This document shows, one piece after another, positions 1 to 12,117 of a DNA stretch of 35,940 nucleotides. The position numbers and the translations under genes were made by a program. This DNA comes from Magnetococcales bacterium (GTDB taxonomy: Bacteria; Pseudomonadota; Magnetococcia; Magnetococcales; DC0425bin3). Under the pieces are notes generated by a model. The model did no database searches. It saw nothing but the letters and a program-made list of their open reading frames with translations, and was not told where the DNA came from. Numbering within the stretch: position 1 is the first letter of the stretch; each line of letters starts with the position of its first letter. Location of the stretch: the NCBI GenBank assembly GCA_015231175.1, contig JADGBZ010000033.1, forward strand, positions 1 to 35,940. Direction: 5' to 3'.

Positions 1-66
1 GTTCGGGGCGAAGCCCTGACAAAGGCTTTCATATCCAGGCTTTTTTTGAAAGGGTACTGAATAGTT
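1..66 (+). repeat. Dispersed multi-hairpin repeat, copy A (cut by window edge)
   Basis: This is the 3' half of a repeat seen five times in the window, all in the same orientation. It starts inside the conserved GTTCGGGGCGAAGCCCTGAC core and runs through the 'CTTTCATATCCAGGC' segment to 'GGGTACTGAATAGTTAC'. It lies just beyond the 3' end of the membrane acyltransferase gene. The 5' half is presumably outside the window. Confidence 0.8.
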
Positions 67-93
67 ACGATAAAAAAAGGGAGTGGGCAGCTT

Positions 94-1509: not shown

Positions 1510-2244
1510 ATGAAAAAGATCTCTTGCATTCCCACGGCTGTGATTTTGCTGATCGTTGCGCTCGCCGGGTGTTCGACGGCCTACAAGGCGACGCCGGTCT
1601 CTTTTCGTGCTCCCGAGTCCTATCCCAATAACCAGCGGGTTTTCAACACGGTCGTTGGATCGGAGCCGTTTTTCAATCCGGATATCGCCAGGGACAAGTT
1701 TGGCTTCGATATCATCGGCGCAGGAATCCTGCCTGTCCAGGTTGCGTTTGACAATCAAGGCGAAAATCCCCTCCATATCGTCGATGGTCAAACTTTTCTG
1801 ATTGGTGTTGGCGGATCGATGTGGCCCATTCTGGATAGCAAGTTTGTCCAGGAACGGACGCAAAAATATACCCAGACCAAGGATATCTTTGAAAAGGGCT
1901 CCTATGGTGGTTTTCTGGGTGCCGCTGCGGGTGGCTTGGTCGGTGCGGCCATTGGCATCCTGAGCAACAAGAGTGTGTTGGCTTCGGCTGGCAAGGGGGC
2001 CGCTGCGGGTGGCGTCCTGGGGGCCCTGGGGGGTGGTGTTGATGGCGCCGTCCATGCGGAAGGCATCGAACGCATCCAGGACGATGTGGCCCAAAAATCC
2101 ATGCTACACCGGGCCATTCCTCCCGGAACGATCAGTTTCGGGATGCTGTTCTTTCCGGCGGAGGCTACCCAGGCGTTTGCGCTCAGGCTGCAAATCGAAG
2201 ACACCAAGGCCAAAAGCAAAAAGACCGTGACCTTGAATTTTTAA
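1510..2244 (+). CDS. Lipoprotein with glycine-zipper segments, function unknown
   Basis: The frame is open from 1276, but the start at 1510 is chosen because it yields a clean lipoprotein signal: MKKIS, a hydrophobic core (VILLIVALAG) and a lipobox LAGC with Cys at about residue 20. The mature protein (244 residues with signal) has a soluble first half. A Gly/Ala-rich centre follows (FLGAAAGGLVGAAIGIL and AAAGGVLGALGGGVDGA), typical of glycine-zipper segments that insert into or pack against membranes. The C-terminal part (PPGTISFGMLFFP ... LRLQIED) looks like a beta-sandwich. It probably sits in the outer membrane or its periplasmic face. No specific function is recognised. Its 3' end faces mutL, with repeat copy B between them. 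Confidence 0.75.
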   Translation: MKKISCIPTAVILLIVALAGCSTAYKATPVSFRAPESYPNNQRVFNTVVGSEPFFNPDIARDKFGFDIIGAGILPVQVAFDNQGENPLHIVDGQTFLIGVGGSMWPILDSKFVQERTQKYTQTKDIFEKGSYGGFLGAAAGGLVGAAIGILSNKSVLASAGKGAAAGGVLGALGGGVDGAVHAEGIERIQDDVAQKSMLHRAIPPGTISFGMLFFPAEATQAFALRLQIEDTKAKSKKTVTLNF

Positions 2245-2250
2245 CGCATC

Positions 2251-2369
2251 GGGGTCCAGGGGGCTGGCTCCCTGGCAGGTCCAGGACGGAGTCCTGGCGG
2301 GGTTCGGGGCGAAGCCCTGACAAAGGCCTTTATGTGTAGACCTTTCCTGAAAGGGTGCTGGATGGTTGT
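2251..2369 (+). repeat. Dispersed multi-hairpin repeat, copy B
   Basis: This full-length copy of about 120 bases lies between the convergent lipoprotein and mutL genes. It contains three consecutive self-complementary blocks: CCAGGGGGCTGGCTCCCTGG, CCAGGACGGAGTCCTGG (a perfect 7-base stem) and GGGTTCGGGGCGAAGCCC. A 'CTTT...GAAAGGGTGCTGGAT' tail follows. The same order is found in copies C, D and E. It is transcribed from either side and may act as a transcript end structure. It resembles REP/MITE-type elements, but no transposase or target duplication is visible. Confidence 0.85.
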
Positions 2370-2381
2370 CGGTCTTTTGAG

Positions 2382-4418
2382 TCAGCGGCGCCCGAAGAGT
2401 TTGGCCAGATCGGCAAGAGTCAATTTGACGTGGGTCGGGCGACCGTGGCCGCACTGGCCGGAGAAGGGGGTCGTCTCGATCTGCCGCAGGAGGGCGTTCA
2501 TCTCCTCCAGGGAGAGTCTCCGGTTGGCCCGTACCGAGCCATGGCAGGCCATGGAGGTGAGGATGGTCTCCTGGCGTCGTTCCACAGCGGTGCTGCTGCC
2601 GAAACGCTCCAGGTCATGGATCACGTCCATGATCAATTTTCCGGGTTGATTTTTGGCCAGGAAGGCTGGCAACTCGCGCACCAGGAAAGCGTTTTCGCCA
2701 AAAGGTTCCACGATCACCCCCATGTGTGCCAGTTCTGGCAGCGCATCGCGCAGTCGCTCCGCATCGGCGGGTGAAAGCTCCAGCACGTCGGGAATCAGGA
2801 GCATTTGCCGTTCGGATGGCATGGCGGCATGGGACTGTTTCAGGGTTTCATAAACCACCCTCTCGTGGGCGGCGTGCTGGTCGACCAGGATGATGCCATC
2901 TTCGGTCTGCGCAAGGATATAAGTGCCGTGAATTTGGGCCAGGGGGGTACCCAGGCTGACACCCCGCAGCGGTGGGTGCGCCGGCCCTTTTTCCGGAGGA
3001 GACAGGGTTGGGGCTGCATCTGGATGCTGACCACCCTGTGGCTGTGAAAGGGAGTCCGGGAATGGGGGGCCAGGGGGCTGGCTTCCTGGCAGGTCCAGGC
3101 CAGAGTCCTGGTGGGGTTCGGGACGAAGCCCTGACAAGGTCTTTTGTGTCAAATCGTTATCGAACAGGCCAGAGTCCTGGTGGGGTTCGGAGCGAAGCCC
3201 TGACAAAGCCTTTCGTGTCAGATCGTTATCGAAAGGGCGCTGAAGGGCGGCTGCCGAGGGAGAGGAGTGCGTTCTGGAAGGGGATGTCTCCTCCCAATGC
3301 ACCGGGCGACTCGCCGCTGCGGGTAGACGGGCCACCACCTGCTCACCTTGGGATGGGCCCATGGCGGGTTGCCAGGGGGCTGGCGTCGGGTTGCTATGAG
3401 CGTGTGTGGTGGAGAGGGCTTCCGCCAGGCTGCGCCGCACCGCTGCATGAATGAAATGGCCCTGGTGAAAGCGCACCTCCTGTTTGGTGGGATGGACGTT
3501 GACATCCACGGCGTCTGGGGGCATGTCCAGAAAAAGGGCCAGGATTGGATGGCGATCCCTGGGCAGGGTGTCGCCATAGGCCTCTCGGGCGGCATGCTGG
3601 ATGGAACGATCACGGACCCAGCGCCCGTTGACGTAGAGATAGATGCCGGAGGTGTTGGCCCGGTTCAGGGTGGGCAGGCCCAGCCAGCCAAAAAGGCTTA
3701 AATGATCGCTGCTGCCTGCAAACTCAAGACAGTTGTCGGGAAACTCTCTGCCAAACACGGTAGCCAGGCGGATACGGGTTTGTTGCGCGTCGCTGCCGCC
3801 ACGCATCTCCACCACGGGTTTGGCGTCGATCTGCAAACGAAACCCGACCTGGGGATGGCCCAGGGCGTGCCGCAGGATCAGATCGGTGACATGCGTGGCT
3901 TCGGTGCGATCTGAACGTAAAAATTTGAGACGCGCCGGGGTGTTGAAAAACAGGTTGCGGACCGTGACGCATGTACCCGGCACCATGGCCGTGCGCCGGG
4001 TCTCCTCAATGTGGCCTCCCCTGACCGGAATGGCGACCCCGTCGGTCTCTTCCCGGACGCGGCTGGCCAGCTCCATGAAGGAGACGGAGCCGATGGAAGG
4101 GATCGCCTCACCCCGAAAACCCAGCGTGCGAATCTGGAACAGATCCTCCACATGGCTGATTTTGGATGTCGCGTGACGCTCCAGCGCCAAACGGGCCTGG
4201 TCGGCGGTCATGCCGCAGCCATCGTCGGTCACCTGGATCAGTTTGCGGCCACCCTGCTCAATGCGTACATCGATATGGGTCGCACCGGCATCCAGGCTGT
4301 TTTCCACCAGCTCCTTGACCACCGAGGCGGGCCGTTCCACCACCTCACCGGCGGCAATCTGGTTGGCCAGGGTGGTGGGGAGGATTTTAATTTGGCGGGT
4401 GGATGGGGTATCGGGCAC
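2382..4418 (-). CDS. mutL: DNA mismatch repair protein MutL with endonuclease motif
   Basis: The 678-residue product has the GHKL ATPase N-terminus of MutL: IAAGEVVERPASVVKELVEN (residues 21-40), DAGAT, DDGCGM (65-70), TLGFRGEA (98-105). The DVNVHPTKQEV motif is at 305-315. A Pro/Ser-rich linker spans about 340-490. The C-terminal domain carries DQHAAHERVVYE (513-524), an exact DQHA-x2-E-x4-E metal-binding endonuclease motif, plus SMACHGSVRAN (622-632) and CGHGRP (656-661). It should therefore be a nicking MutL, as in bacteria without MutH, acting with MutS and the sliding clamp. The start codon is GTG (4416-4418); a weak AAGG lies upstream. The linker contains two tandem 23-residue units (396-418 and 419-441) encoded by repeat copy C. 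The gene is divergent from infA. Confidence 0.96.
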   Translation of the reverse strand: MPDTPSTRQIKILPTTLANQIAAGEVVERPASVVKELVENSLDAGATHIDVRIEQGGRKLIQVTDDGCGMTADQARLALERHATSKISHVEDLFQIRTLGFRGEAIPSIGSVSFMELASRVREETDGVAIPVRGGHIEETRRTAMVPGTCVTVRNLFFNTPARLKFLRSDRTEATHVTDLILRHALGHPQVGFRLQIDAKPVVEMRGGSDAQQTRIRLATVFGREFPDNCLEFAGSSDHLSLFGWLGLPTLNRANTSGIYLYVNGRWVRDRSIQHAAREAYGDTLPRDRHPILALFLDMPPDAVDVNVHPTKQEVRFHQGHFIHAAVRRSLAEALSTTHAHSNPTPAPWQPAMGPSQGEQVVARLPAAASRPVHWEETSPSRTHSSPSAAALQRPFDNDLTRKALSGLRSEPHQDSGLFDNDLTQKTLSGLRPEPHQDSGLDLPGSQPPGPPFPDSLSQPQGGQHPDAAPTLSPPEKGPAHPPLRGVSLGTPLAQIHGTYILAQTEDGIILVDQHAAHERVVYETLKQSHAAMPSERQMLLIPDVLELSPADAERLRDALPELAHMGVIVEPFGENAFLVRELPAFLAKNQPGKLIMDVIHDLERFGSSTAVERRQETILTSMACHGSVRANRRLSLEEMNALLRQIETTPFSGQCGHGRPTHVKLTLADLAKLFGRR
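3064..3246 (+). repeat. Dispersed repeat, copy C, inside the mutL coding region with a 69-bp tandem duplication
   Basis: The element found between genes elsewhere in the window lies here inside the mutL linker. It begins GGGGGGCCAGGGGGCTGGC and continues CAGGCCAGAGTCCTGG ... CGAAGCCCTGACAA. The second part is present twice: unit 1 at 3096-3164 and unit 2 at 3165-3233. Both are 69 bases, i.e. exactly 23 codons, so the mutL frame (minus strand) stays open. The two units differ at only a few positions. In the protein they read FDNDLT(R/Q)K(A/T)LSGLR followed by (S/P)EPHQDSGL. Confidence 0.85.
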
Positions 4419-11318: not shown

Positions 11319-11348
11319 GCCGCAGGATTGATGGGGAGTGTATGAATC

Positions 11349-11467
11349 GGGGTCCAGGGAGCTGGCTCCCTGGCAGGTCTGGGACAGCGTCCTGGTGGGG
11401 TTCGGGGCGAAGCCCTGACAAAAGCTTTCATATCCAGGCTTTCCTTGAAAGGGTGCTGGATAGTCGC
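11349..11467 (+). repeat. Dispersed multi-hairpin repeat, copy D
   Basis: A full copy lies just past the yqgE stop. Its first block, CCAGGGAGC-TG-GCTCCCTGG, is a perfect 9-base stem with a 2-base loop. The GGGGTTCGGGGCGAAGCCCTGAC core and the 'CTTTCATATCCAGGCTTT ... GAAAGGGTGCTGGATAGT' tail follow. It is the left member of a direct-repeat pair with copy E. Confidence 0.85.
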
Positions 11468-11849: not shown

Positions 11850-11991
11850 TGGATCGTCCTCTTGTCAGGGGGTTCATACTTGACTTCGGGACAAAGCCCA
11901 CCGAAGGCGCATACACACCCCGAGGATACTATTTTGGTATCAGTAATAAAAGCAAAAAATCAGCGAAACGATTCATCTGCCGGCCACGATC

Positions 11992-12117
11992 GGGGACCAG
12001 GGGGCTGGCTCTCTGGCAGGGTATTGGGCAGCGTTCTGGTGGGATTCAGGGCGAAGCCCTGACAAGGGCTTTCATATCCAGGCTTTTGTCAAAAAAAAAG
12101 GGTGCTGAATAGTTACA
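11992..12117 (+). repeat. Dispersed multi-hairpin repeat, copy E
   Basis: This copy is somewhat diverged: GGGGACCAGGGGGCTGGCTC, then CAGCGTTCTGGTGGGATTCA and GGGCGAAGCCCTGACAAGG. The CTTTCATATCCAGGC and GGGTGCTGAATAGTTAC tail is close to copy A, including the 'GAATAGTTAC' ending. It lies downstream of the hppA 3' end and forms a direct-repeat pair with copy D about 640 bases away. Confidence 0.8.

Follow-up and report, generated by a model that had tools for sequence, protein, structure and literature searches.

The DNA analyzed here (the window) is the whole 35,940-nucleotide contig C33 of the draft genome of a Magnetococcales bacterium (G000; 3.8 Mb in 175 contigs). Its features are listed in Table 1 together with two genes located elsewhere. 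The mutL open reading frame (ORF) of the window runs over 678 codons without a stop. A Pfam search placed the ATPase-side domains at residues 28 to 335 and MutL_C at residues 493 to 635, one on each side of an insert that lies in the linker between the ATPase and endonuclease domains of MutL. When the invariant columns were examined, the DQHAAHE, ACHGSVR, and CGHGRP motifs were present.

TABLE 1 Coordinates of mutL, its insert, the MITE copies of the window, and two further genes that carry MITE sequence
Feature	Position	Strand	Description
mutL	2382..4418	minus	678 aa; ATPase-side and endonuclease-type C-terminal domains intact
MITE-derived insert (by nhmmer and alignment)	3060..3250	+ (plus strand of the element as drawn; mutL reads the opposite strand)	MutL residues ~391-453; given as 3064-3246 in the preliminary description
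69-bp unit	3096..3164	+	Encodes MutL residues 419-441 (FDNDLTQKTLSGLRPEPHQDSGL)
69-bp unit	3165..3233	+	Encodes MutL residues 396-418 (FDNDLTRKALSGLRSEPHQDSGL)
Right TIR remnant, inner part	3231..3244	+	GAAAGGGCGCTGAA; consensus GAAAGGGTGCTGAA
Peptide from predicted insert translation			TLSGLRPEPHQDSGL
MITE copy, 3' half	1..68	+	Profile, 67.1 bits; contig begins within the copy
Intergenic MITE copy	2242..2367	+	Profile, 126.5 bits; its end lies 14 bp from the stop codon of mutL
Intergenic MITE copy	11342..11465	+	Profile, 131.3 bits
Intergenic MITE copy, near full length	11967..12115	+	Profile, 118.4 bits
BcrAD/DUF2229 protein, 1508 aa	G000:C23:1476-5999 (L184:476-4999)	minus	Two tandem MITE copies in frame
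Mur ligase	G002:C30:30843-32909 (L078:15843-17909)	minus	~60 extra residues with the repeat core

The insert contains a tandem repeat (3096 to 3164 and 3165 to 3233) with a period of exactly 69 bp and no indels, in which 63 of 69 bases (91%) are identical. A preliminary description of this DNA had called the 69-bp duplication exact; this holds for its length and not for its sequence. The units begin at nucleotides 1185 and 1254 of mutL, both in frame, and the two near-identical 23-residue units that had been described were recovered, with 20 of 23 residues alike between residues 396 to 418 and residues 419 to 441. The 6 nucleotide differences between the units comprise 3 synonymous and 3 nonsynonymous changes.

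A BLAST search with the mutL stretch returned 47 matches in its own genome, and nhmmer aligned the insert to a profile of the repeat at 3060 to 3158 (E = 2.3e-27) and 3165 to 3244 (E = 6.3e-19), spanning model positions 23 to 121 and 59 to 139. Since these E values and genomic matches rule out chance, the mutL stretch is, by homology, a copy of a dispersed repeat, which agrees with the original proposal that an intergenic repeat sits inside the mutL linker. Copies aligned with their flanks define an element of 147 bp with terminal inverted repeats (TIRs; GTAACTATTCASCACCC) and the ends GTAACTATTCASCACCC...GGGTGSTGAATAGTTAC. Perfect 8-bp target-site duplications (8/8) flank 10 copies of the family, for example, CAAGGATT, TACCATGT, and ACTCCATC. 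Genome-wide, 214 TIR sites were found with no more than 1 mismatch, compared with 0 for the reversed control, and a profile search returned 86 matches in the sampled stretches of the draft genome (436 kb). In the consensus, no frame stays free of stops for more than 49 codons, and the element has no transposase gene of its own. On the basis of the matching ends, the 8-bp duplications, and the number of TIR sites relative to the control, these data establish the repeat as a MITE that is short, nonautonomous, dispersed, and high in copy number, with TIRs and a target duplication of constant length. Rfam yielded no family for the repeat, and the literature yielded no paper on such repeats in Magnetococcales.

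Other copies show features of their own. The copy that ends next to the mutL stop codon may affect the transcript at its 3' end. The window contig starts within another copy, the assembly having broken at the repeat. Pairs of copies with a constant spacing of 154 bp (147 + 7) occur at L053:14660-14960, L054:16720-17020, and L165:1847-2084, which suggests insertion beside an existing copy. The hairpin core (model positions ~25 to 98) is present without IS66-type ends in many Magnetococcales (G001, G036, G042, and G020), and hairpins related to it occur in G011 and G026 within longer elements that have the IS66-type ends of the MITE. The core may be an older repeat that these ends acquired.

GTAA-type ends are typical of the IS66 family. 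The MITE has such ends and 8-bp duplications, as an IS66-driven element would, and resembles IS66-family insertion sequences in both respects, although it differs from them in being without a transposase gene. In two relatives, its TIR adjoins an IS66 DDE transposase gene (PF03050; G003, contig C138, and G039, contig C147); for both IS copies, only this one end was located. IS66 elements are also listed with 8-bp duplications (PMC3281130). We infer that an IS66-type transposase mobilizes the MITE. No full or intact IS66 element with MITE ends was found in the assembly that contains the window, where the parent may have been lost or left unassembled. Two PF03050 matches in this genome were rejected as the parent, being without these ends, and a 1,055-bp pair of ends on contig C139 proved to be an N-filled assembly gap between two MITE halves.

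The copy within mutL is less complete. In an alignment that takes in the surrounding sequence, the inner part of the right TIR is retained, whereas the left TIR is degraded and not convincing, and an 8-bp duplication was not seen. As judged from this alignment, the mutL insert is an eroded MITE copy. RNA folding of the insert was not clearly better than that of its shuffles (z = -1.15), whereas the intact MITE gave a z value of -4.1; the hairpins have therefore weakened in mutL.

The preliminary description had proposed an alignment of mutL from relatives. Of 30 Magnetococcales mutL loci, only that of the window contains the repeat, which is missing from the other 29 (one of them, from the congener G001, seen in part). 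The congener G002 has a complete mutL linker without the repeat, and the part of the linker present on the G001 contig is likewise free of it. Across the order, linkers without the repeat measure 115 to 201 residues, compared with 181 for the MutL of the window, and they evolve too fast to be aligned base by base or to yield a base-exact empty site. The shared sequence taken alone would also fit the reverse direction, in which the MITE core began as mutL linker sequence and spread from there, but such an origin is scarcely credible. Many Magnetococcales genomes have the core but no repeat in mutL, the mutL copy is diverged and truncated with a degraded TIR, and no outgroup mutL was found that has this linker sequence and is without the repeat family.

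The preliminary description had further proposed that the minus strand of the repeat has a ready open frame, by which the repeat can serve as a source of coding sequence. This part of the proposal failed, since the frame used by mutL through the core is open in 0 of 29 scorable intergenic copies (1 to 4 stops each) and three different frames are used among the coding copies described below. In the element, ~2.0 of 6 frames were open compared with 1.7 of 6 in composition shuffles, a crude comparison of 117-nucleotide pieces that differ in length; open frames are little commoner than composition predicts. Of the two units, one has CGA and the other CAA in place of the TGA of the mutL frame. By alignment, 1 nucleotide is deleted beside the right TIR, so that the ORF, which is in frame 0 across the TIR part, enters the core in frame 1. 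Because 155 bp of newly inserted DNA would break the frame and the mutL frame is closed in 29 of 29 intergenic copies, the coding state of the mutL copy is secondary, with small mutations having opened the frame.

The exact 69-bp period is unremarkable as well, since partial tandem duplications of any period are common in the other MITE copies. Their periods range from ~22 to 119, and of the 22 counted, ~3 are divisible by 3. Both duplications in coding copies have periods divisible by 3 (69 and 108). With n = 2, it is suggestive only that the element tends to duplicate in part and that a frame filter retains multiples of three.

Within this genus, insertion of the MITE in frame is not confined to mutL. 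In the BcrAD/DUF2229 protein, residues 948 to 1027 (~80 residues) correspond to two tandem MITE copies with a spacing of 108 bp. G002 matches residues 2 to 941 and 1055 to 1499 of this protein with only 30 bp between the two matches, and G001 is also without the MITE stretch. In the Mur ligase of G002, residues 564 to 623 (~60 residues), in the C-terminal domain, include the repeat core with 97% identity and are absent in G000, G003, G004, G006, and G008. By these comparisons, relatives have clear empty sites for both the BcrAD/DUF2229 and the Mur ligase insertion. The consensus frames used are minus 1 in mutL, minus 2 in the BcrAD protein, and plus 1 in the Mur ligase. Three independent coding copies thus involve three frames on both strands, and therefore no particular peptide is delivered. 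The alignments indicate in-frame insertion, absent from relatives, in the unrelated genes for MutL, the BcrAD/DUF2229 protein, and the Mur ligase. Approximately 40 other long ORFs across repeat copies were scanned with Pfam and set aside: the majority matched no family, and in the rest the repeat lies ahead of the domains and may be upstream sequence.

These results bear on whether an assembly error joined the repeat, or just the second unit, into mutL. The draft consists of 175 contigs and the window contig itself begins within a MITE copy, but an artefact of this kind is highly improbable. The two units differ at 6 of 69 bases, no other genomic copy with more than 83% identity to the insert over a comparable length was found by BLAST, the ORF is intact through the insert and its flanks with the in-frame TGA removed, and the same kind of event is seen in two other genes.

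The insert was also considered in the context of the protein. In an AlphaFold prediction with 40 MutL sequences, pLDDT was below 50 at residues 340 to 470 and 472 to 481, and the N- and C-terminal domains were confident. The MITE-derived insert falls wholly within the low-pLDDT part. The suggestion that a tolerant linker served as the landing site was supported. Downstream of the insert, mutL codons differ from those of the sister species G002 at 37, 12, and 88 first, second, and third positions, respectively; this distribution indicates purifying selection on the downstream codons, part of which is older than the insertion. With its catalytic motifs and domains preserved, MutL with the insert still looks functional. 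When its linker is shortened by 40%, Escherichia coli MutL loses roadblock bypass but has no mutator phenotype (PMC6902014), which makes tolerance of a change in linker length plausible.

The term "domesticated" had been applied to the repeat, and in the sense of a selected function it was not supported. Selection of the insert peptide, or of the duplicated 23-residue unit, for a MutL function such as linker length or partner binding is unlikely. The conservation of 20 of 23 residues between the units and the importance of linker length for the passage of E. coli MutL past roadblocks (PMC6902014) speak for it. However, the 3 synonymous and 3 nonsynonymous differences do not separate selection from drift, linkers vary widely in length across the order without the repeat, the shortened E. 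coli linker causes no mutator phenotype, and nothing of the insert is conserved across species. It is very unlikely that the 69-bp repeat lets linker length vary by recombination in the population, so that a transposon-derived coding minisatellite tunes mismatch repair.

We assign a probability of approximately 0.86 to the reading that a 147-bp MITE moved by IS66 inserted in the mutL linker, that the frame was regained, and that a 69-bp part was duplicated, with a roughly neutral outcome. The nonautonomous MITE, moved by an IS66-type transposase, would have inserted in the disordered-linker part of mutL in the species of the window, after its split from its two sequenced congeners. The fresh insertion (147 + 8 = 155 bp) would have shifted the frame, which would have been kept or regained via small indels, and the TGA of the now-used frame would have been changed to CGA and CAA. 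A 69-bp part would then have been duplicated in tandem, and this duplication would have persisted owing to a length divisible by three and to a linker that accommodates changes in length. The outcome would be ~60 extra disordered residues in a functional-looking MutL. We infer both this order of events and their neutrality.

A Magnetococcales lineage joins the few bacterial groups in which small mobile repeats demonstrably become protein sequence, here in at least three genes, and mutL and the Mur ligase gene (cell-wall synthesis) are genes that are costly to lose. Because frames and strands differ between the genes, the data argue for passive accommodation filtered by frame and against an element that evolved to be coding. 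Passive accommodation bears on whether Rickettsia-type elements are special.

In-frame insertion of small mobile repeats is a known phenomenon, and the Magnetococcales case adds to it. The RPEs of Rickettsia (Ogata et al. 2000, 2002) are mobile elements of ~150 bp found in frame in unrelated genes, to which they add tens of residues (PMC10969869). A conserved peptide is reportedly encoded by RPEs, almost half of which are in ORFs (PMC10969869). The Magnetococcales MITE is likewise ~150 bp, lies in frame in unrelated genes, and adds tens of residues, but its copies are almost all intergenic, its coding copies use three frames on both strands without a common peptide, and it has clear IS66-type ends and 8-bp duplications. 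The enterobacterial RU-1, RU-2, and RU-3 elements (Delihas 2007) are also intergenic MITE-like repeats, some of them fused into ORFs. Their fusions are reported at C-terminal regions, outside the conserved domains of superfamily proteins (PMC2759123), whereas the Magnetococcales insertions are internal (the MutL linker, the BcrAD protein, and the C-terminal domain of the Mur ligase). Compared by description, QMITE1 and QMITE2 of Coxiella (PMC5896051) are similar as bacterial MITEs with ~50 copies, and QMITE1 overlaps annotated ORFs, yet the lengths of their target duplications are unlike the 8 bp seen here. BrickBuilt of Porphyromonas is, like the present element, a MITE with internal tandem repetition, but it is always intergenic and its unit is 23 nucleotides (PMC4596501).
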